From positions 1 to 37,954 of the forward strand of contig JADEXJ010000049.1 in assembly GCA_015207195.1 (NCBI GenBank): a stretch of 37,954 bases of DNA, read 5' to 3'. Both the position numbers and the translations under genes were made by a program. The notes under the pieces are model-generated. The model did no database searches and was not told the origin of the DNA. It saw only the letters and a program-made list of their open reading frames with translations. Positions within the stretch are counted from its first letter, which is position 1, and each line of letters begins with the position of its first letter. This stretch comes from Pleurocapsales cyanobacterium LEGE 10410. GTDB lineage: Bacteria > Cyanobacteriota > Cyanobacteriia > Cyanobacteriales > Xenococcaceae. Positions 2,414-15,496 of this stretch are shown in pieces.

Positions 2414-2474
2414 GGCGTTGCGACAGCAAACGGACAAAAAACAACGCTGGACGTATAATCAGAATTATTTAACT
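2414..2474 (+). repeat. Left terminal inverted repeat, outer transposon
   Basis: Begins GGCGTTGCGACAGC and matches the reverse complement of 11358-11418 over 61 bp with one mismatch (C against T at 2460). The match ends outward at 2414; base 2413 differs from the right flank. Confidence 0.92.
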
Positions 2475-2490
2475 TAAATTAGCATATATT

Positions 2491-2594
2491 CAACTGTGTA
2501 TATAAGTTCACTTGTACGTCGAGTTTTGCCCAACTGAACGTATAATTAAGAGAAATTAGCACTATTATCGACGGAAAAACTAAGCGTATAATTA
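2491..2594 (+). other. Candidate TnpI resolution site (IR1-IR2 core plus DR1, DR2)
   Basis: Four related ~17-18 bp motifs lie between the outer left repeat and tnpI. IR1 is 2491-2507 (CAACTGTGTATATAAGT). IR2 is 2510-2526 on the other strand (AAACTCGACGTACAAGT). DR1 is 2531-2548 (CAACTGAACGTATAATTA). DR2 is 2577-2594 (AAACTAAGCGTATAATTA, 15 of 18 identical to DR1). An inverted pair followed by two direct copies is the known layout of the Tn4430 internal resolution site, where TnpI acts on the inverted core. Function is inferred from layout and position. Confidence 0.65.
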
Positions 2595-2601
2595 CGCGCC
2601 C

Positions 2602-2650
2602 ATGCCATCTACATCTGAAGTTGCCGAAAATACAAAAGACTCGATTAATT
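2602..2650 (+). pseudogene. tnpI: 5' fragment of outer tnpI recombinase gene
   Basis: Starting at the ATG at 2602 this encodes MPSTSEVAENTKDSIN and the first base of codon 17, then is cut by the inner transposon at 2651. Deleting 2651-7504 joins base 2650 to 7505 in frame (TAT codon), giving a 305-aa recombinase. The fragment retains the original start codon and lies just after DR2 of the candidate resolution site. Confidence 0.85.
2646..2650 (+). repeat. Target site duplication TAATT, left copy
   Basis: TAATT directly before the inner left repeat; the same five bases follow the inner right repeat at 7500-7504. Five bp is the standard duplication length for Tn3-family insertion. Confidence 0.92.
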
Positions 2651-2719
2651 GGGGTAAAACTAGCGAAGCTGTCACCAGGGGCAATCTAGCCCGAAACCCA
2701 TGCCCCATAAGCATTTCAA
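2651..2719 (+). repeat. Left terminal inverted repeat, inner transposon
   Basis: Starts GGGGTAAAACTAGCGAAG and matches the reverse complement of 7431-7499 with about five mismatches in 69 bp. It contains an inner GGGGCA / TGCCCC dyad. Confidence 0.92.
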
Positions 2720-2735
2720 TCACACATTTTTTATG

Positions 2736-3314
2736 CTAACTCCATAATCCTTCAAATCTAGCTGCCGATAGCTGTGTATACCTAACAGTATTCTGAATAT
2801 TGGCATGACCGAGATAATCCTGAATAGTTCTCGTATCCACTCCTTTATTCGCCAGATAATAGCCACAAGCATGACGAAGCAAATGAGCATGAATCACAAA
2901 ATCAAAACCTGCCAGTAATCCAGCTTGATGAACAATGTGACTGATAGTTCTCTCGCTCAAAGGAGTGTGGCGATTGCCATTAAACACAAACGATGAAGGT
3001 GCATAATCTCTTTTCAGTCTTTTTAAAGCCCTCATCTCATCACCCTGAAGTGGATGACGACCAGAACGAGAACCTTTGATGCGTCTAATGTAAATTGTTC
3101 CTTCTTTTAAATCTACGTCTGACCATCGCAAACGAGCAGCTTCAGTTCGTCTCAATCCATGACGATAAATTATCAAAATCAGAACGGAATTTCTGTAGGA
3201 ATACCATCCACCTTTACTTTTCACTGCCTCAATCAACAATTTAACTTCAGAAGCAGTAAGATGGTCGCGAGAAGTTTTGCAGCTTTCAGTGCTTGGGGCA
3301 GTCAAAGTAGTCAT
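2736..3314 (-). CDS. Short (FimB/FimE-like) tyrosine recombinase
   Basis: A 192-aa phage-integrase-family recombinase that is essentially only the catalytic domain. The first catalytic Arg is in IYRHGLRRTEAARLRW (near residue 54), a beta-strand Lys in IRRIKGSRSGRH, the HxxR box in HAHLLRHACG, and the final His/Tyr box in YLGHANIQNTVRYTQ. It lacks the N-terminal SAM-like core-binding domain of XerC/D, as in FimB/FimE-type proteins of about 200 aa. GAGAGAGGG lies upstream of the ATG at 3314. Inside the inner transposon it occupies the position of a co-integrate resolvase, which is its likely role. The unrelated length and sequence of the outer TnpI show two independent resolution systems. Confidence 0.88.
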   Translation of the reverse strand: MTTLTAPSTESCKTSRDHLTASEVKLLIEAVKSKGGWYSYRNSVLILIIYRHGLRRTEAARLRWSDVDLKEGTIYIRRIKGSRSGRHPLQGDEMRALKRLKRDYAPSSFVFNGNRHTPLSERTISHIVHQAGLLAGFDFVIHAHLLRHACGYYLANKGVDTRTIQDYLGHANIQNTVRYTQLSAARFEGLWS

Positions 3315-3413
3315 CGCCAGCCCTCTCTCAAAGTTTTGTTATGCCTTCATTGTAGAAAAGGTTAAAAGAATTGAATCAGCTACTTTTGCAGTCTCTGGTT
3401 AGAAGCTGCAATA

Positions 3414-4469
3414 TTATCTTAATGGAGGCTGAATAGAAAAAGGGGCTAAAGCTGGACAATAATAGTTGGCAATTTCTTTTGCAATCGCATCAGGACGAAT
3501 AATTTTATCAAGATTGCAAAATAAAATAACGGTGAGGCGATCGTCGATAAAGCGGGTTATATTGCTAGCAAATCCCACAATCGATCCGTTATGAGCGACA
3601 ACACGTTTATTTTGGTAATCGGGCATGAACCATCCTAAACCCGCCCTCAAATATCCAGCATATCTTTCGGGTTGCCAAATCTTTCTAGATGAAGGAGGAT
3701 GATGTGTCCACATTAAATCAAGTGTCGATTGTTGTAATGATGTAGGATTGCATAACTCTCGTTCGTATTTCACCATATCTTCGATACTTGATAGCTGTCC
3801 GCCAGCAGAAAAAGTTACCGAAGGACTATAGTAAGGTTTGTTGATTAATTTATCTTTGTGCAAATGATAACCAGAAGAACGGTGAGGTACTATTTCGTTA
3901 GGATTATTCATTCTGGTAGCAGTCATATTTAAAGGCTTAAACAAACGCTCCTGCATCAAATCGGCGTAGGATTTGCCTGTTATCTGCTGAAGCATCATGC
4001 CTAACAGATAATAACCAGTATTGTCATAACTAGAATATTCTCCTGGCTGAAACATCAGAGGTAAATCTCTTACCAAGTCGATAATCTCTGTTTGAGATAA
4101 CCGATAGCGAATAACATCCGTCCAGTAATTGTCTACTTCTGTATAGCTAGGAAGTCCAGATTGATGAGATAATATATGTCTTACCGTTACTGAATGCCAG
4201 GCTTGAGGTAAATTATCTAGATATTCAGCGATCGCTCTATCCAATTCGATGACCCTTTCTTCCACCAACATCATCACCACAGAAGCAGTAAATGTTTTGC
4301 CTACTGAAGCAACCTCATAAACTGTCTTTTCTGTTGCAGGAACAGAATGCTCCAAATTAGCAATTCCATAACCTTTTACCAGTAACGGTTTACCTTCTTT
4401 GACAACCGCAACAGACATACCTGGTATCTGCTTTTCGGTCATTACATTTTGAATATACTCATCAATCAT
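3414..4469 (-). CDS. Beta-lactamase-family serine hydrolase (transposon cargo)
   Basis: A 351-aa member of the class C beta-lactamase / D-Ala-D-Ala carboxypeptidase / esterase fold. The nucleophile motif is SVGK (SxxK) near residue 56, in VYEVASVGKTFTA. The second motif YDNTGYYLLG near residue 149 gives the Tyr and Asn, and HNGSIVGF near residue 298 is the HxG motif. No signal peptide is visible: the protein starts MIDEYIQNVMTEKQ and enters the fold directly. Periplasmic beta-lactamases normally have an export signal, so a cytoplasmic esterase or peptidase role is as likely as antibiotic resistance. It is the only cargo gene of the inner Tn3-family element and is divergent from tnpA. Confidence 0.85.
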   Translation of the reverse strand: MIDEYIQNVMTEKQIPGMSVAVVKEGKPLLVKGYGIANLEHSVPATEKTVYEVASVGKTFTASVVMMLVEERVIELDRAIAEYLDNLPQAWHSVTVRHILSHQSGLPSYTEVDNYWTDVIRYRLSQTEIIDLVRDLPLMFQPGEYSSYDNTGYYLLGMMLQQITGKSYADLMQERLFKPLNMTATRMNNPNEIVPHRSSGYHLHKDKLINKPYYSPSVTFSAGGQLSSIEDMVKYERELCNPTSLQQSTLDLMWTHHPPSSRKIWQPERYAGYLRAGLGWFMPDYQNKRVVAHNGSIVGFASNITRFIDDRLTVILFCNLDKIIRPDAIAKEIANYYCPALAPFSIQPPLR

Positions 4470-4572
4470 GGTTAATCGATTAATCTTCGTAGTAGTGGGT
4501 AAGATAGTCAGGAATACTGTGCGTTTTATTTAGTTTAAGTTTGAATTATTATTCAGTAGTAAACAAGATAAT

Positions 4573-4598
4573 GAGAGATAGTAAACACAATATCTCTC
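4573..4598 (+). promoter_or_regulatory. Perfect 8-bp dyad just before inner tnpA start
   Basis: GAGAGATA (4573-4580) and TATCTCTC (4591-4598) are perfect complements around a 10-base spacer and end four bases before the tnpA ATG at 4603. No clear Shine-Dalgarno sequence is present, so a hairpin here could limit translation, or the dyad could bind a recombinase or repressor. Confidence 0.45.
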
Positions 4599-4602
4599 GT
4601 AA

Positions 4603-7422
4603 ATGAAACGCTCCTGGCAACCAGAAGAATTAATCGAACATTGGACACTGATTCCCATTGAATTAAATCTCTTAACCAAGAAAACAGCTACGAATCGCTT
4701 GGGAATAGCTTTATTACTTAAATATTTTCAGTACGAAGGTAAATTCCCCACATCTAAAGCTGACATTCCCCGTGATGTAGTTCGTTACGTTGCTCAATTA
4801 TTAAAGCTTTCTCCTGACAGATTCGATAATTATGATTGGCAAGGGCGAACCATCAAAGCCCACCGCGCCATTATTCGTGACTTTCTTGGTATCACCGAAG
4901 CAACAGTTAAAGATGCTGAAGAGCTTACGACATGGTTAGAAACCCAAGTATTGGCATACGATCTCAAACCTGAATCTCTCGAAATAGCAGCATCAGAACG
5001 TTTGCACCATCTCAAGATAGAACCTCCTACTCAAGAGCGACTACAACGCATTGTCCGTTCGGCTATTCGGCGTTTTGAAGATGGTTTTTGTGAAAAGACT
5101 TTTCAACAGCTACCATTACCAGTCCGTACCAAGTTAGACGAGCTATTAAAAACCGCTCCAGAGACTGATAACTCAGAAGAATCAGAAGAAACGAAAAATA
5201 CTGCTCCTCATAATACTCCTTCTCCTCTAGCTATTCTCAAAAGCGACCCAGGACGCATTGGTTTAGATAGCTTAATCTCCGAAGCTGCAAAGTTAGAACA
5301 ACTGCGCCAATTAGAATTACCAACTAACCTATTTGAGGGAATTTCCAATAAAGTTCTGCAAATCTACAAACAGCGAGTTGCTGTTGAACCACCAAGAGAA
5401 CTACGCCGTCACCCAGATAGCCGTCGGTACACTCTACTGTCTGCTTTCTGTTGGCTGAGAACTCAAGAAATCACCGATAAGAAGGAAGTAATTTATCCAG
5501 TTGTGGGCGAAACCACCTTGAAGAATCTGGTGCGGGAATTCAAATCAACGGGAACGGCATACAAGGAAAAGGTTTACACCGTTATGCGTTCTTCCTATGG
5601 CAATCACTATCGACGGATGCTGCCCTTTCTACTTAATCTTCTAGAATTTCGCTCCAACAATGAGATACACAAACCCGTCATTGAAGCCTTAGAGTTACTG
5701 AAAAAGTACATTGGCAGTCGGGAAAGATATTACGATGAAACGGAAAATGTTCCGACAGACGGGATTATTGGAGCTAGTTTATCAGAACTGATTTTAGAAA
5801 CCAAAGATGACGGCAGCGTTAAAATTAACCGCATCAACTACGAACTAGCAGTTCTTCAAGCTTTGCGGGATGGACTGCGGTGCAAAGAAATTTGGGTCGT
5901 CGGAGCAAATCGCTATCGTAACCCAGAAGAAGACTTACCCACTGACTTTGAGCAACAAAAAGAAGCCTATTATCAAGCACTTCAACAACCAGAAGATGTC
6001 GAAGCATTTATTAGTAATCTTCAGCAACAGATGACGAATGGCTTGGCAGAACTAGATCGAGGAATACCCAAGAACGATCCAGTAAAAATTCTCACTAAGA
6101 ACAACGGTTGGATTAAATTATCTCCTTTTACTGCTTTGCCCGAACCCTTGAATTTAAAACGCCTCAAGAAAGAAATTGAGCAGCGTTGGTCGATGACTAG
6201 TTTGCTGGATATGCTCAAGGAAACCGATCTACGAATCAACTTTACCAAGCATTTCAGAAGTGTTTCTAGTCGAGAAAACCTTAACCCCAAAGTATTACAA
6301 AAACGCTTGCTAATTGACCTCTATGGCTTAGGGACAAATACAGGCATCAAACGTTTGAGCTTAGGTGAATTAGGAGAAAAATATCAAGATTTACTCTATG
6401 TCAGACGTAAATTTATCCATAAGTCACAGCTAAGAAATGCCATTGCTGAGATTATTAATGCCACTTTTGCAGCCAAACTGCCTCAGATATGGGGAGAAGG
6501 CACAACCACTTGTGCCAGTGACTCCAAAAAGTTTGGGGCTTGGGATCAGAATCTAATGACTGAATGGCATATTCGCTATGGTGGCAGAGGAGTCATGATC
6601 TATTGGCACGTTGATAAGAATTCGGCTTGTATTTATTCCCAATTAAAGACCTGTTCTAGTAGCGAAGTGGCAGCCATGATTGAAGGTTTATTGCGTCACT
6701 GTACCAATATGAAAGTAGAGAAGAATTATGTTGACAGTCACGGACAGTCTGAAGTCGCTTTCGCCTTCACTCATCTGTTGGGATTTAATCTAATGCCCCG
6801 ACTTAAAGCGATTCACAAACAAAAATTGTATCTCCCTTCAACTGGTCAAAGTAATGCCTATCCTAATTTGAAACCAATTCTGAGTCGTTCAATTAATTGG
6901 GATTTAATTCGTCAACAGTATGACCAAATGATTAAATATGCGACGGCTTTGAGATTGGGTACAGCAGAAACAGAAGCCATACTCAAGCGATTTACTCGTT
7001 CAAATTTGAGCCATCCAACCTATCGTGCTTTAGCTGAATTGGGCAAAGTCATCAAAACTATTTTCTTATGTAAATATTTACATTCAGAAGCACTACGTCG
7101 GGAAGTTAATGAATCGCTAAATGTTGTGGAGAGTTGGAATAATGCCAATGGATTTATCTTCTTTGGTAAAGGGAAGGAAATAGCGACTAATCGCATGGAA
7201 GACCAAGAGGTAGCTATTTTATCTTTGCACCTATTACAGTCATGTTTGGTGTACGTGAATACGCTCATGATTCAGGATGTGCTATCTGAACCTGAGTGGA
7301 TGAATATAATGAAACCCGATGATTTGAGGGCATTGACACCTCTGATTTGGAGTCATGTTAATCCTTATGGTACTTTCCGCTTGAATCTTGATGAGAGGTT
7401 GCCAATTCAGATTGCTGCTTAA
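4603..7422 (+). CDS. tnpA: Tn3-family transposase TnpA (inner element)
   Basis: A 939-aa DDE transposase, near the ~1000-aa family norm. The N-terminal DUF4158-type DNA-binding region covers roughly the first 170 residues. The C-terminal catalytic part has the first Asp at about residue 640 (CASDSKKF), the second Asp at about 711 ([14 protein letters not shown]) and the Glu near 866-869 ([15 protein letters not shown]). The C-terminal [12 protein letters not shown] signature is also typical. It drives replicative transposition of the inner element by acting on the ~69-bp ends. The stop codon is 8 bases from the right inverted repeat. The gene appears intact. Confidence 0.95.
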
Positions 7423-7430
7423 TTACGATT

Positions 7431-7499
7431 TTGAAGTGCTTATGGGGCAAAGGTTTCAGGCTAGATTGCCCCTGGTGACAGCTTCGCTAGTTTCACCCC
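7431..7499 (-). repeat. Right terminal inverted repeat, inner transposon
   Basis: Reverse complement of the left repeat with about five mismatches, ending in CACCCC at 7499. TAATT (7500-7504) follows directly. Confidence 0.92.
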
Positions 7500-7504
7500 T
7501 AATT
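7500..7504 (+). repeat. Target site duplication TAATT, right copy
   Basis: Direct repeat of 2646-2650 immediately outside the right end of the inner transposon. Confidence 0.92.
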
Positions 7505-8373
7505 ATCGAGGTAATTTCGCGCAGTTTCTCATCGAATCAGAACGGAGTGCTTACACAATTAAAAACTATCTCTGCGATTTAGATAGTTTTGCCCTGTGGT
7601 TAAAATCCAAGGGCAACAGAGATTTTACTCCTGAATTAATTACGCCAACTGATCTAAGAGAATACAAACACTATTTAGACGAAACACTACAGTTAAAACC
7701 GAAAACCATTAATCGTAAGCTCTCCAGCCTCCGCAGCTTCCTCAATTGGGCGGGAATTGAAGGCTATTTTCCAGACAATCGTTTACCCCACATTCCCCAA
7801 CCGATAAAAGAACAAACTTCAGCACCCAAATGGTTGGATAGACTATCTCAATACGATCTGTATCGCATCGTCGAAAAAGGTAGAAAAACTAGAGACATCG
7901 CGATCGTCAAATTACTACTCAATACGGGATTGAGAGTTTCCGAACTCTGCGCTTTAACCTGGAAAGATATCAGAATTACTGCCAAAAAAGGACGCTTGAG
8001 CGTCAATCATGGCAAAGGTGCAAAAAGAAGAACTATTCCCCTGAATAAAGATGCGCGGTCTGTCTTAGTAGAACTGGGATATCACAATTCCAAAGATTCT
8101 GACAAACGAGTATTTATCGGTCAAAGAGGAGCAATGACTCCTAGAGGCATTGAAAGTACCCTCAAAAAATACGTTAAACAAACCGATTTAGAAGGAGTAT
8201 CGCCCCATCAACTCCGACATACATTCTGTAAAAATCTCATTGATGCAGGAGTGAGTTTAGAAAAAGTCGCGACTTTAGCAGGACATGACAATCTAGAAAC
8301 TACCCGCCGTTACTGCACTCCCAGCGAGCAAGATTTAGCAGCAGCCGTAGAACTAATTGGGGAGGAGGATTAA
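7505..8373 (+). pseudogene. tnpI: TnpI/Xer-like tyrosine recombinase, 3' part, interrupted by transposon
   Basis: Continues in frame from the 2602-2650 fragment. The N-terminal core-binding domain starts NYRGNFAQFLIESE and runs through a SFLNWAG segment. The catalytic domain carries Arg in LLNTGLRVSEL, the HxxR box HQLRHTFCKN and the box LAGHDNLETTRRYC. The reconstructed protein is 305 aa, the XerC/D size. After the insertion the frame is open only from 7465 and has no standard start before the ATG at 7834. That start could yield a 179-aa catalytic-domain-only protein. Full function is probably lost, although a FimB-like short form is conceivable because the inner element's own recombinase is just as short. 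Confidence 0.85.
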
Positions 8374-8385
8374 CACTGTAAAAAG

Positions 8386-11358
8386 ATGCCAGGACAATTC
8401 CTCACCAAAGCAGAACGAGAACGCCTTCAATCCTTCCCAGAACAAATTACCCCCGATGAAATCATCATTTTTTTTACCCTCTCAGATAAAGATTTAACTC
8501 TGGTTAAAAAACGCAGTGGCGACCACAATTTATTAGGGTTTGCCCTGCAATTAGGAACGCTTAGATACCTCAGTTTTATTCCCGATAACTTTCCTCAATT
8601 GCCACCAAAAGTAATTGAATATGTCGCCCAACAACTAAAAGTTCAAGCAGACGCGATCGCTGACTATGGAGAACGTTCTCAGACCAGAACCAGCCAACTA
8701 CAAGAGATTCAAGACTATTTGGGATTTCGCAAACCTAACAAAACAGACTATCAACAGTTAGAGAAGTGGTTATTAGAAAGGGCAATGGAACACGACCGTC
8801 CTTTGCTCCTGTTTCAACTGCTGATTAAAAAACTAGAAATAGCCAAAATTATCCGTCCAGGGCTAACGATTCTAGAGAGAATGGTAGCTTATGCCCGTAA
8901 TGAAGCTTGGACAGAAACGGCTCTTCGCTTGCAACCAATTTTGACTGATTCTCGCTCGCAGTTCTTGGATGGCTTATTAGAAGTAGAAGCAGAAAAACAA
9001 CGCACTCCTCTAGCTTGGCTGCGGACTGGTGCGGTGAGTAATTCTCCTAGAGCCATCAAAAATGCCTTAGCTAAACTAGACTTTTTGAACCAACAAAATG
9101 TCAAGGATTGGGACGTTAGCGTTCTCAATCCCAATCGCTTGAAGTTTCTGGCGAAATTAGGCAAAAAATCTCCCACTCAAGCCCTTTCTCGCACTCCCGA
9201 ACCTCGTCGCTACTCCATACTGATTGCCTTTTGCAGTCAAATTTATACTGAAATTATTGATGAAACCATTGACCTGTATATCAGTACCCTAGCCAATACT
9301 CATGCTCGTTCCAAGAGAGATCGAGATGTCTTTCAGCGTAAAATTGCTCAATCTCTCAATCAAAAAATCAAGCTGTTGAACAAAATCGGTCAGGTAATTC
9401 TGGATGAAGAAATTCAAGACGAACAATTGAGAGGGAAAATATACGACCAAATAACTCCTGAAGAGTTATCCCAAGCAATTACCGAGTGTAAATCTTTAAT
9501 CCGCCCTCATGCCGATGATTACTTCGATTTTTTTGCTTTACGCTATAGTTATCTGCGTCAATTTGTTCCCACTTTTTTAGCAGCTTTTAGCTTTAGAGCT
9601 AACCTAACCGATGACCCTCTGATTGAAGCCATTAAAATTATTCGCCATCTCGATACAAATGGCAAAAGAAAAGTTCCAGACCATGCCTCTCTTAAATTTA
9701 TCCCTCAAAGATGGTCGGAATATGTCATAAATCCAGAAGGTAAAATAGTTCGCAAATATTACGAATTATGTCTTCTCTGGGAATTGAGAACTGCTCTGCG
9801 TTCGGGGAATATTTGGATTATTAATAGTCGCAGATATGCCAATCCTGAAAGTTATTTAATTCCTAAACATCAGTGGTCAAAACTCAAATTAGAAGTTTGC
9901 CAACAAATACAAATTTCTGAAGTAGCCAGTCACACCATAGAGCTTAAAAAGCAAGAATTATCCCAGCTTTTGTCCCAATTTGATGCTACATTCCAGGATA
10001 ATGAACAAGTTCGTATCGAAAAGGACAGATTAGTAGTTTCACCGCTCAAAGCTGAAGAAGTTCCCGATAGCACGAAGCAACTGAGAAAACAAATTCGAGA
10101 ACGTTTACCTTGGATTGAGCTTACTAATCTGATAATTGAAATTGATAATCGGACGGGGTTTAGTCAGGCTTTAGTTCATGCAGCCGATACCGAAAACAGC
10201 ATCCCCGACATCAAACGTTATTTGTATGCTGCCATTATCGCTCAGGGCTGTAACATCGGTTTGGAGAGGATGGCACGGCTAGCTAGTCTGTCCTACCATC
10301 AACTTGCTTGGTGTAACAATTGGTATCTAAGAGAATCGACTTTGAAAGCTGCTAACACCAAGATTGTCAACTTTCAGTATCATCTCCCTCTCAGTCAAAT
10401 CTGGGGTGGTGGAACTCTCTCTTCTTCTGACGGACAGCGATTTCCTGTCTCAGTCAAAAACCGCATGGCTGTGTCTCTACCCCGTTATTTTGGTTATGGA
10501 CAGGGGGTGAGTTTCTACAGTTGGACGAGCGACCAGTTTTCTCAATATGGAAGCAAACCAACTATTTCCACTCTGCGCGACTCTACCTATGTTCTGGATG
10601 AGATTCTCGATAATGAAACGGAATTACCCATCATGGAACATACTACAGATACAGCAGGGTACACGGAATTAGTGTTTGCCATGTTTGATTTACTGTGCTT
10701 ACAATTTTCTCCTCGTATCAAGGATTTGGGCGGTCAGCGTCTCTATCGCGTCGAGCGCAATTCTGAATATCAGCATATCGAATCTCTGCTCTCAGGCACG
10801 ATTAAAACTGACAAGATTTTGGCTCGATGGGATGATATGCTGCGGGTAGCTGGTTCGCTCAAGCTAGGCTGGGTAACGGCTTCGTTGTTTCTCAGTAAGT
10901 TAAAATCTTTTCCCCAACAGAACGATCTAGCTAGTTCATTTGCTGAATACGGACGCATGATTAAAACTATTTTTATTCTGCGCTATTTGATGAATCAGCC
11001 CTATCGTCGAAAAATTAACAATCAGCTTAATAAAGGGGAAAGATTACACGATTTACGCCGATTTCTCTTTTTTGCTCATCAAGGAGCTATCAGACAGCGA
11101 CAAGAAGAGGAGTTGACCAATCAAGCTAGTTGTTTAAATTTAATTACCAATGCTGTAGTAACTTGGAACACCATTTATATGGAAGCTGCTATCAATCAAC
11201 TGCGAAGCGAAGGACACTCAATAAGTGATGAGGATATTAATCACTTGTCTCCTACTCGCTACGGACACGTTAATCCTTATGGCATCTATCCCTTTGATAT
11301 TGAGAAAGAATCAAAAAGAATAAGTCTCAGACCCCTTCGTAAACCGTCGGGCAATTGA
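8386..11358 (+). CDS. tnpA: Tn3-family transposase TnpA (outer element)
   Basis: A 990-aa transposase, close to the 987 aa of Tn4430 TnpA. Starting at MPGQFLTKAERERLQSFP it has the N-terminal DUF4158-type region. The catalytic acidic residues are Asp 682 (SSSDGQRF), Asp 755 (TTDTAGYTELVFAMFD) and the Glu cluster 907-909 (RQEEELTNQASCLNL), followed by the GHVNPYGIYPF signature. The start is 12 bases after the tnpI stop codon, with GGAGGAGG at the tnpI end, so the two were an operon. The stop codon touches the right inverted repeat by one base. The frame is intact, so the outer element may still transpose. Confidence 0.95.
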   Translation: MPGQFLTKAERERLQSFPEQITPDEIIIFFTLSDKDLTLVKKRSGDHNLLGFALQLGTLRYLSFIPDNFPQLPPKVIEYVAQQLKVQADAIADYGERSQTRTSQLQEIQDYLGFRKPNKTDYQQLEKWLLERAMEHDRPLLLFQLLIKKLEIAKIIRPGLTILERMVAYARNEAWTETALRLQPILTDSRSQFLDGLLEVEAEKQRTPLAWLRTGAVSNSPRAIKNALAKLDFLNQQNVKDWDVSVLNPNRLKFLAKLGKKSPTQALSRTPEPRRYSILIAFCSQIYTEIIDETIDLYISTLANTHARSKRDRDVFQRKIAQSLNQKIKLLNKIGQVILDEEIQDEQLRGKIYDQITPEELSQAITECKSLIRPHADDYFDFFALRYSYLRQFVPTFLAAFSFRANLTDDPLIEAIKIIRHLDTNGKRKVPDHASLKFIPQRWSEYVINPEGKIVRKYYELCLLWELRTALRSGNIWIINSRRYANPESYLIPKHQWSKLKLEVCQQIQISEVASHTIELKKQELSQLLSQFDATFQDNEQVRIEKDRLVVSPLKAEEVPDSTKQLRKQIRERLPWIELTNLIIEIDNRTGFSQALVHAADTENSIPDIKRYLYAAIIAQGCNIGLERMARLASLSYHQLAWCNNWYLRESTLKAANTKIVNFQYHLPLSQIWGGGTLSSSDGQRFPVSVKNRMAVSLPRYFGYGQGVSFYSWTSDQFSQYGSKPTISTLRDSTYVLDEILDNETELPIMEHTTDTAGYTELVFAMFDLLCLQFSPRIKDLGGQRLYRVERNSEYQHIESLLSGTIKTDKILARWDDMLRVAGSLKLGWVTASLFLSKLKSFPQQNDLASSFAEYGRMIKTIFILRYLMNQPYRRKINNQLNKGERLHDLRRFLFFAHQGAIRQRQEEELTNQASCLNLITNAVVTWNTIYMEAAINQLRSEGHSISDEDINHLSPTRYGHVNPYGIYPFDIEKESKRISLRPLRKPSGN

Positions 11359-11418
11359 GTTAAATAATTCTAATTATACGTCCAGCGTTGTTTTTTGTCC
11401 GTTTGCTGTCGCAACGCC
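11358..11418 (-). repeat. Right terminal inverted repeat, outer transposon
   Basis: Reverse complement of 2414-2474 with one mismatch. The outermost base (11418) forms the last base of the TAG stop that ends the broken pta frame. Confidence 0.92.
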
Positions 11419-12368
11419 TAGACGAGGACTCGATCTTCTAAGCACATAAAAAAGACCGAAGAAGCCAACTCATAGCCTGGTTTGGTTGTGATTAACTGCA
11501 AAGCTGGTCTGAGGGTATGGGCGGTAGTATGAACCGAACCAGATACCATACCGTCTGCGTCTCCCCCATAGACCATCATCGTCCCGAAGTAGGAGACATC
11601 CAGCAGATATTCCCGCACCATATCGGGGGTTGCACCTTTATGTTTTCGCAATTGATAAAACTGTTCGGCATAGAACTCGATTTTATTGGATGTTGCAGGA
11701 TCGATAATTTGTAACAGGCTAATGTCTAGGTCAATGTTGTTTTGCTCGATCTGTTGCGCGATTTTTTCTGGCTGACCTAAAAGAGTTAGCTCGACAATCT
11801 CTCGATTTGACAGCAAGGCTGCTGCCTGCAAAATTCTGATTTCTGTTCCTTCAGGAAGTACGATATGTCGTTTACGAGATTTAGCCTGCTGCAACAAGTT
11901 ATAAGTAAACATTTTGGGGGTAATCCCCTCGATCTTAATTGTATTAATCTGCTCTTCTAATCGATTCAAATTAACGTAATCATCAAATGAATGAATGCTA
12001 ATCGTAATTTTTTCGCGATCGCTAGCAACTAAGGAAGTATGAACTTGTTTGACTAACTCAGAGGTTTCATAAGTATCGGTAGGAACGGATAGAATTGGCA
12101 GGGGGTCGTAAAGTCCGTCAATCAGCTTGATAATTGATGCTTCTGGCTGCAAGTCGCCCGAAAGCAAAATCCCCGATAAATGAGGATAGTTGAGAGATTG
12201 ATGAGTCTGCAACAGACCGACAATAATATCACTGCGATCGCCTGGAGTAATAACTAAACTATCTTTTTTTAGTCTGGTAATGGCGTGTTCTAAGCGCATG
12301 GCAGCAATTACATAATCTAGCACTAAATTATCTAAGGATACCGCTTCGCATATCGCGCAGATAAACAC
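11418..12368 (-). pseudogene. pta: Phosphate acetyltransferase, truncated at both ends
   Basis: Encodes the DRTGG domain and the first part of the PTA_PTB domain (KRHIVLPEGTEIRILQAAAL, then GDADGMVSGSVHTTAHTLRP) of the long ~700-aa bacterial Pta, which makes acetyl phosphate from acetyl-CoA. At the 3' end the frame stops exactly at the outer transposon (VLV then TA from pta plus G from the element), so the last ~150 residues of the catalytic domain are lost. At the 5' end the N-terminal P-loop domain is missing. The first codons run through the TCCTAAAGGATACC-type repeat (12331-12353) and a repeated ATAAACACAG sequence. Activity is very unlikely. It lies downstream of acs in the same direction. 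Confidence 0.88.
12331..12353 (+). repeat. Copy of 25-bp repeat module within pta 5' end
   Basis: Twenty bases (12334-12353) are identical to positions 20976-20995 of the 25-bp module at 20971-20995. Nearby ATAAACACAGATAAACACAG is a short tandem repeat. Together they form the left side of the broken pta 5' end. Confidence 0.7.
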
Positions 12369-14416: not shown

Positions 14417-15496
14417 TTAATTAATTGAACTGACGATGATTGATTCGCCACCAGCCAAAACTAAGGGGAAATTATGAGCGTTAGGTGAGTGCATCGCTTG
14501 GATGCCCAAATTAGCCCGATTGAGTAAATCTGCATCGCTAGGAATTACCCGACCCTGACTATCCAAAATCGATTGATTGAAGTTAAAACCATTAAGGTTA
14601 AACGCCATCGCGCTTACTCCTGCTGCTGCACACCAAATACCAATAGTCGGAACGGCTGCCAAGAGAAAATGAAAAGCTCGATGGTTGCCACTAGCAAACC
14701 AAGGAATCAATAACCGACCCAAGAATCCATAGTGTCCAGCCATGTAGTTGTAGGTAACTTCTTCTTGACCAAATTTATAGCCTCGATCCGCAGATTCAGT
14801 TTCAGTGGTTTCGCGAATCAAGGTTGAGGTTACCAATGAACCGTGCAAAGCTGCTAATAATGCACCGCCAAATACTCCTGCTACACCTAACATATGTAGC
14901 GGATTCATCAAAATATTATGCTCGGCTTGGAACGCCAGCATAAAGTGGAAAGTTCCTGCAATCCCTAGGGGTAGCCCTTCAGAAAAGCTGCCTTGTCCGA
15001 GAGGATAAACTAGCAATACTGCGGTGGCAGCAGCTACTGGTGCAGAAAAGGCGACAGCAATCCAGGGACGTAAACCTTCACGATAGCTTAGTTCCCATTG
15101 CCTGCCGAGATAACACCAAATAGCAATTAGAAAGTGAAAGATAATTAGTTGATAAGCCCCGCCGTTGTATAGCCATTCCTCTAAAGAACTAGCTGCCCAA
15201 ATGGGATAAAAGTGTAACCCAACCGCAGCCGAAGTAGGAACGACGGCAGCAGTAATCATGTTGTTTCCTCCTAACAAAGAACCAATTACAGGTTCGCGAA
15301 TGCCATCAACATCAACACCAGGTGCAGCAATAAATGCCACGATAAAGCAAATGGTGGCAGCTAGCAAGGTGGGAATCATTAATACGCCAAACCAACCAAT
15401 ATAGATGCGATTATTGGTACTGGTAATCCAGCGACAAAACTGTTCCCAAACACCAAGGAAATCGGATTCAGAACGTTGTCTGATAAAAGTATTCAT
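14417..15496 (-). CDS. psbA: Photosystem II D1 protein, atypical rogue/sentinel and low-oxygen type
   Basis: A 359-aa D1 homologue with five transmembrane segments. In standard D1 numbering (this protein is +3 in the N-terminal half), Tyr161, His190, Asp61, Glu189, His198, His215, His272, His332 and His337 are kept. Mn-cluster ligands are altered: Asp170 is Glu, Glu333 is Ser, Asp342 is Val. Ser264 of the QB/herbicide site aligns with Ala, and one residue is inserted after His252. Trp131 is kept, so it is not the ChlF (chlorophyll f synthase) type. The triplet that defines the microaerobic D1' (Ala80, Leu158, Ala286) is present. Loss of Mn ligands is the mark of the 'rogue' or 'sentinel' D1 known from Cyanothece, thought to make PSII centres that cannot evolve oxygen in the dark. 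acs follows after 16 bp. Confidence 0.93.

Follow-up and report, generated by a model that had tools for sequence, protein, structure and literature searches.

A Tn3-family transposon nested within a Tn4430-like transposon beside a truncated pta gene in a cyanobacterial genome

The locus at positions 2414-11418 of contig JADEXJ010000049.1 from Pleurocapsales cyanobacterium LEGE 10410 (assembly GCA_015207195.1) raises the question of how two Tn3-family transposons came to lie one inside the other next to a truncated phosphate acetyltransferase gene (pta), and in which order they arrived. The window, meaning the whole stretch of 37,954 nucleotides that was analyzed, is contig C258 of a 6.64-Mb draft genome in 392 contigs. 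An outer transposon with a Tn4430-like layout spans 2414-11418 and is interrupted within its tnpI-like recombinase gene (tnpI) by an inner Tn3-family element. We consider it very probable that the arrangement arose by two successive transpositions, in which the Tn4430-like element came to lie near pta with a deletion and the inner element later entered tnpI.

Nesting and the Empty Insertion Site

The inner element occupies 2651-7499 and is flanked by a perfect 5-bp duplication of TAATT, with the left copy at 2646-2650 and the right copy at 7500-7504. A preliminary description of this DNA had placed the element and its duplication at these positions, and comparison of the ends and flanks shows that it was correct to the base. 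The insertion lies, again as described there, in codon 17 of the outer tyrosine recombinase gene, which starts with the ATG at 2602 and is broken after the first base of this codon. The gene is divided into a 5′ part made up of codons 1-16 plus one base of codon 17 (2602-2650, + strand) and a remainder running from the rest of codon 17 to the stop (7505-8373, + strand). Joining 2650 to 7505 yields a 4151-bp outer element and a 305-amino acid recombinase with no internal stop and with TGLR and HQLRH motifs. The TAATT target forms the center of a palindrome, CTCGAT-TAATT-ATCGAG.

The preliminary description had stated that an empty site in a relative departing from the 2650/7505 join would refute it, and the empty sites found match the predicted sequence. 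The 13-mer spanning the join, CGATTAATTATCG, is continuous in eight distinct outer-type loci (seven of them aligned), three being on contigs C159, C283, and C213 of the same genome and one each in genomes G006, G007, G013, G023, and G147. The uninterrupted recombinase homologues encoded on C159 and C283 are 95 and 90% identical in amino acid sequence, respectively, to the joined protein of the window. The ends, the duplication, the joined frame, and the empty sites thus uphold the nesting, the relative order of the insertions, and the exact reconstruction. Two further copies, in G029 (L069, near 1330) and a second one in G006 (L122, near 1315), match on the left side only and diverge exactly at the TAAT or TAATT of tnpI codon 17. 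For the 150 bases past each of these breaks, a search of five genomes per break turned up no second copy; by eye, they start unlike the Tn3 ends of this analysis, and no transposon was recognized in them. No evidence against the nesting itself was found. The nesting holds and has unusually strong support, yet events of this kind are standard and well understood.

The Outer Element

The terminal inverted repeats of the outer element lie at 2414-2477 (left, starting GGCGTTGCGACAGCAAACGG) and 11355-11418 (right) and match at 62 of 64 positions. A 990-amino acid transposase resembling that of Tn4430 is encoded at 8386-11358 on the + strand (DDE_Tnp_Tn3, 4.6e-140); a full-length transposase and long inverted repeats, both characteristic of the Tn3 family, are therefore present. 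The tyrosine recombinase gene lies upstream of and collinear with the transposase gene (tnpA), which is the order found in TnpI-type transposons.

Between the left end and tnpI lies a putative TnpI recombination site. Its core (2492-2526) consists of two arms at 2492-2505 and 2512-2526 separated by a 6-bp spacer, and it is followed by two direct-repeat boxes on the + strand at 2532-2545 and 2577-2591. The inverted pair and the two direct boxes have CGTATAA in common, and a further copy of the box is contained in each terminal repeat, at 2450-2459 on the left (GACGTATAAT, + strand) and at 11373-11382 on the right. The pattern RRCGTATAAT occurs four times in the window against an expectation of 0.30, with none of 100 shuffled sequences reaching four. 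At the level of sequence this is the four-box layout of a TnpI site (IR1-IR2 core, DR1, and DR2) placed beside tnpI; the four boxes would bind the recombinase, and the inner insertion has left the putative site intact. The core pattern is present in four of the five copies scanned (the window, C159, C283, and C213) and not in G147, where there is a deletion. Across an alignment of ten left ends the four-box arrangement recurs imperfectly: the second G006 copy apparently has no counterpart of one direct box, a box is substituted in G029, and one core arm is degenerate in G019.

Over almost its whole length (residues 4-985, 605 bits, 2.4e-180) the outer transposase can be aligned with that of Tn4430, and the inner transposase gives 222 bits with its best stretch at residues 328-927, in a comparison where Tn4430 supplied the only matching PDB sequences. 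A scan of named organisms gave no match to the outer transposase. In layout and transposase the outer element resembles TnpI transposons of the Tn4430 type. With tnpA, both ends, and the recombination site apparently intact, it may still be able to form cointegrates but would be unable to resolve them alone.

The Outer Insertion Site and the pta Deletion

The outer element lacks the 5-bp target duplication at this locus. Its ends are bordered by TGCTG and TAGAC, and no duplication was found with the boundary set at the first shared base or, by eye, one base further out. Directly adjacent is the remnant of the host pta gene (11419-12368, − strand), which the outer element truncates on the 3′ side. 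The remnant matches the Pfam PTA_PTB domain over positions 1-162 of 319, up to the border of the outer element, and a 708-position NCBIfam model over about positions 239-544; it is truncated on both sides. No other PTA_PTB match and no 3′ half of pta were found elsewhere in the genome. Genomes G019 and G017 have a DHOD gene and a PFK gene followed, after 2.4 and 2.9 kb, respectively, by an intact pta on the opposite strand, and the order and orientation of DHOD, PFK, and pta are the same in the window. The DNA alignment of pta in both genomes begins at window base 11419, ∼0.5 kb inside the gene. Because the alignment starts at this base, the window lacks the 3′ part of pta and the DNA as far as pfk, and the element sits at the breakpoint. 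The outer element is read as an insertion with an adjacent deletion that comprises the 3′ part of pta and 2-3 kb beyond it, and the missing duplication at the outer ends can be explained by this deletion. The 5′ third of pta is missing as well, beside an acs-like gene (named from its translation), and a second deletion is therefore needed. Among 12 genomes of the same genus, some of them incomplete, a close pta is present only in G004.

Order of Events and Alternative Explanations

In the history proposed here, the 4151-bp Tn4430-like transposon would first have entered or moved near pta. The outer element, or a later intramolecular transposition or recombination of it, would then have removed the 3′ part of pta and the 2-3 kb extending to pfk without leaving a duplication. 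In a last step the 4849-bp inner element would have entered the outer tnpI at the TAATT of codon 17, generating the 5-bp duplication usual for the family. Replicative intramolecular transposition of Tn3 elements can create adjacent deletions. We infer that the deletion arose by such a transposition and not by recombination between copies; the intramolecular route is described in PMC5142620.

Several observations weigh against this account of the deletion. No strain was found that carries the outer element in an intact pta with a duplication, and the left flank (2307-2413) has no DNA match in G019 or G017. The loss of the 5′ third of pta is a further deletion located away from the element. An exact 5-bp duplication is present in only two of the eight outer-type or miniature elements for which both ends are available (the ends in G022 and G012 being estimated), a proportion consistent with frequent rearrangement that also makes any one explanation of the absent duplication less secure. 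The absence of the 3′ part of pta also rests on a draft assembly of 392 contigs.

For the deletion step alone, homologous or TnpI-mediated recombination between two outer copies, with removal of the intervening DNA, is a serious though less favored possibility. Several outer-type copies are present in the genome (C159, C283, and C213/C132), and flanks without a duplication are common among the relatives (6/8). A comparable situation is reported in PMC4133298 for Tn3-derived inverted-repeat miniature elements (TIMEs), where 4 of 18 have duplications and recombination between copies is proposed for some. However, no second copy near pta or pfk is known, and comparison of the first 16 kb of the window gave no outer-element match in the syntenic loci of G019 and G017.

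An arrival of both elements together, as a prebuilt nested composite moved by the outer ends, is improbable. The 9-kb unit could move, given that its outer ends and tnpA look intact, but among 388 genomes (own included, two candidates scored per genome) the seven matches outside this genome that reach TAATT comprise five that read through it and two that diverge, with none entering the inner end, and the outer family is resident in this same genome. That the nest is an assembly chimera is highly improbable, because misassembly is not expected to yield perfect duplicates flanking the inner element, a join that stays in frame, and eight matching empty sites, and because C159 has the same kind of event with a different duplication, even though the draft of 392 contigs has 12 Tn3 DDE-domain matches and contigs C159 and C283 end within Tn3 elements.

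The Inner Element and Its Cargo

The inner element is 4849 bp long and is composed of a compact tyrosine recombinase gene, a serine-hydrolase cargo gene, and tnpA. Its terminal inverted repeats at 2651-2719 (left, starting GGGGTAAAACTAGCGAAGC) and 7431-7499 (right) are identical at 64 of 69 positions, including 40 of the first 41, and with the 5-bp target duplication they conform to the Tn3 family. The transposase of 939 amino acids (4603-7422, + strand) is full length, matching DDE_Tnp_Tn3 over positions 1-389 of 389 (2e-139) and NF033527 with 917 bits against a cut-off of 500. The putative resolvase is a 192-amino acid protein (2736-3314, − strand; Pfam Phage_integrase, 1.4e-40) that is FimB/FimE-like and consists of the catalytic domain only; its top NCBIfam models are tyrosine-type DNA invertases, with scores under the model cut-offs. 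Just upstream of tnpA, sequence comparison identifies an 8-bp perfect inverted repeat around 10 bp (4573-4598), to which similar sequence is present in G015 and G004. This repeat is a possible recombinase or regulatory site and the sole candidate for a res site to accompany the compact recombinase.

Among the matches listed, the inner transposase shares 55-62% identity with near-full-length transposases of cyanobacteria, and the inner recombinase shares 46-57% with other compact recombinases, rising to 81% in Gloeothece verrucosa PCC 7822. A separate Tn3-family element of ∼5.2 kb is located on contig C392 of the same genome (L018, 7656-12883); it is flanked by a 5-bp duplication of AATTA, its transposase is only distantly related, and its compact recombinase shares 48% identity with that of the inner element.

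The cargo gene (3414-4469, − strand) encodes a serine hydrolase of the β-lactamase/S12 fold (Pfam Beta-lactamase, 2.2e-71) with the motifs SVGK, YDN, and HNG. In the related inner-type elements of G015 and G004 the slot of the hydrolase is filled by an open reading frame (ORF) of 201 amino acids, and sequence comparison places a stub of ∼13 codons from the beginning of this ORF, with its start codon lost, at 4485-4524 (− strand) of the window. G. verrucosa PCC 7822 has the same divergent order of recombinase and transposase with no annotated gene in between, its transposase gene being annotated as fragments. A homologue of the hydrolase at E ≤ 1e-60 occurs in only one of 59 other genomes searched (G030, 60% identity). 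Because relatives carry the 201-amino acid ORF in this slot, the stub is retained, and the homologue is so restricted, the sequences indicate an exchange of cargo within the inner element, an older gene being replaced by the serine hydrolase. The ORF in the slot of G015 and G004 and the single homologue among the 59 genomes likewise speak against a hydrolase native to the inner-element family. The earlier claim that the nest shows how a cargo gene entered the locus holds in that the hydrolase would have arrived with the inner element, but needs amending in that an older ORF was replaced within that element and left its stub.

Other Copies and a Second Nest

The genome contains 12 matches to the Tn3 DDE domain, and contig C159 carries a second, independent nest of one Tn3 element in another. 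Here a 5606-bp Tn3-family element is inserted in tnpA of an outer-type copy near residue 883, with a perfect duplication of TAATA. The tnpA of this copy also changes frame near residues 111-125, and the contig includes neither the right end of the copy nor its first 15 bases on the left. Among 27 genomes of the bacterial family, this one included, a DDE domain split around another Tn3 transposase is found on C159 alone, in a table that passes over nests outside that domain such as that of the window. The preliminary description had judged two nested Tn3 elements in one locus to be unusual; the nest is real, but its rarity is weakened by the second nest on C159 and by published cases of Tn3 elements within Tn3 elements (PMC7157771).

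The remaining outer-type copies are also incomplete, and no intact one was found in this genome. Contigs C213 and C132 share 4 bp of the outer element and each enters foreign sequence at a contig end; they probably represent a single copy that has been split into two within tnpA. The recombinase of C213 is 15 residues short, and the copy on C283 ends at the contig end within tnpA. The outer-type element on C213 (L111, 1022-5320) contains a four-gene cargo inserted between element bases 56 and 57, a point towards the inner side of the left inverted repeat that precedes the recombination site, with genes named from their translations as an AraC-type regulator, an α/β hydrolase, an SDR, and a SnoaL-like protein.

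Since full-length tnpI genes are present on C159 and C283 and a full-length tnpA in the window, complementation in trans is possible, and TnpI from either contig could act on the window copy. A more doubtful proposal combines two parts: that the outer transposon may persist as complementary wrecks (ends, site, and tnpA in the window; tnpI and site on C159) that, although neither is autonomous, could jointly transpose and resolve, and that TAATT at codon 17 may be a recurrent breakpoint, the latter suggested by the partial copies in G029 and G006 that end at the same place.

Miniature Elements and Relation to Known Systems

Miniature elements of 324-326 bp with outer-type ends are found at seven loci (in G004, G011, G012, G016, G019, G022, and G026), two of the seven having exact 5-bp duplications. 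The five that were aligned (L117-L121, 324-325 bp, from G004, G016, G019, G022, and G026) retain a recognizable TnpI-type site, with the degenerate core arm already mentioned for G019. These short elements with Tn3-type ends are candidate counterparts of the TIMEs (PMC4133298), which are noncoding and moved in trans. The five aligned differ from the TIMEs of Pseudomonas in keeping a recognizable recombination site, whereas for the latter such a site is only speculated upon in that paper.

The closest layout is that of Tn4430 and Tn5401 of Bacillus, which share the collinear tnpI-tnpA order with the outer element. As described in PMC7157771, their recombination site lies upstream of tnpI and is built of an inverted pair and two direct repeats, and Tn5401 has a copy of the box close to each end; both features recur in the outer element. 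The outer element differs in being cyanobacterial, in its interrupted tnpI, and in a transposase clearly diverged from that of Tn4430. The same paper names only three elements with TnpI among 190 Tn3 members (Tn5401, TnBth4, and Tn4430) and states that Tn3 transposons have taken in other members of the family. The coexistence of different members in one replicon and transposition immunity are discussed in PMC5142620. Nests on resistance plasmids are alike in having one member inside another with a 5-bp duplication and members coexisting in one replicon (PMC7157771 and PMC5142620); in the present case the host is a cyanobacterium, the outer element is of the TnpI type, the cargo is different, and two independent nests occur in one genome.

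Tn3 elements on cyanobacterial plasmids (Nostoc, Stanieria, Geminocystis, and Gloeothece) have transposases and compact recombinases related to those of the inner element, but their cargo differs. The neighboring recombinase varies among cyanobacterial Tn3 elements, with a resolvase-domain protein annotated in Scytonema NIES-4073 and a 301-amino acid integrase in Nostoc commune. Interruption elements from Calothrix sp. PCC 6303 and from C. thermalis PCC 7203 are mentioned as having Tn3 transposases beside recombinases (PMC4874684). Searches of the open-licence literature on Tn3-family, TnpI, or Tn4430 elements and on nested transposons in cyanobacteria, judged by titles and abstract openings, brought up no description of an arrangement like the present one.

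Genomic Neighborhood and Implications

The surrounding region (window 1-26531) holds genes of a fermentation or low-oxygen flavor, including a DHOD-like gene and PFK (profile matches), the pta remnant, and, named from translations, acs, a PFL-activating-enzyme-like protein, pyruvate kinase, and two Crp-type regulators. A divergent psbA gene encoding D1 (14417-15496, − strand) is flanked by the acs-like gene on one side and a gene for an Hsp20-like protein on the other (names taken from translations). In an alignment to photosystem II D1 three manganese-ligand positions, Asp-170, Glu-333, and Asp-342, read Glu, Ser, and Val, respectively. The predicted protein recalls the sentinel or rogue D1 type.

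Beyond the nest first described, the analysis adds another nest elsewhere in this genome, an outer element of the TnpI type together with its recombination site and its miniature relatives, and a deletion in pta. The locus provides an order of two insertions that is exact to the base and independently verified, and the broken pta gene is a concrete cost. The TnpI layout is extended to cyanobacteria, together with miniature relatives that retain a recognizable recombination site, and the set of damaged copies forms a natural test case for whether broken Tn3 elements complement each other in trans.

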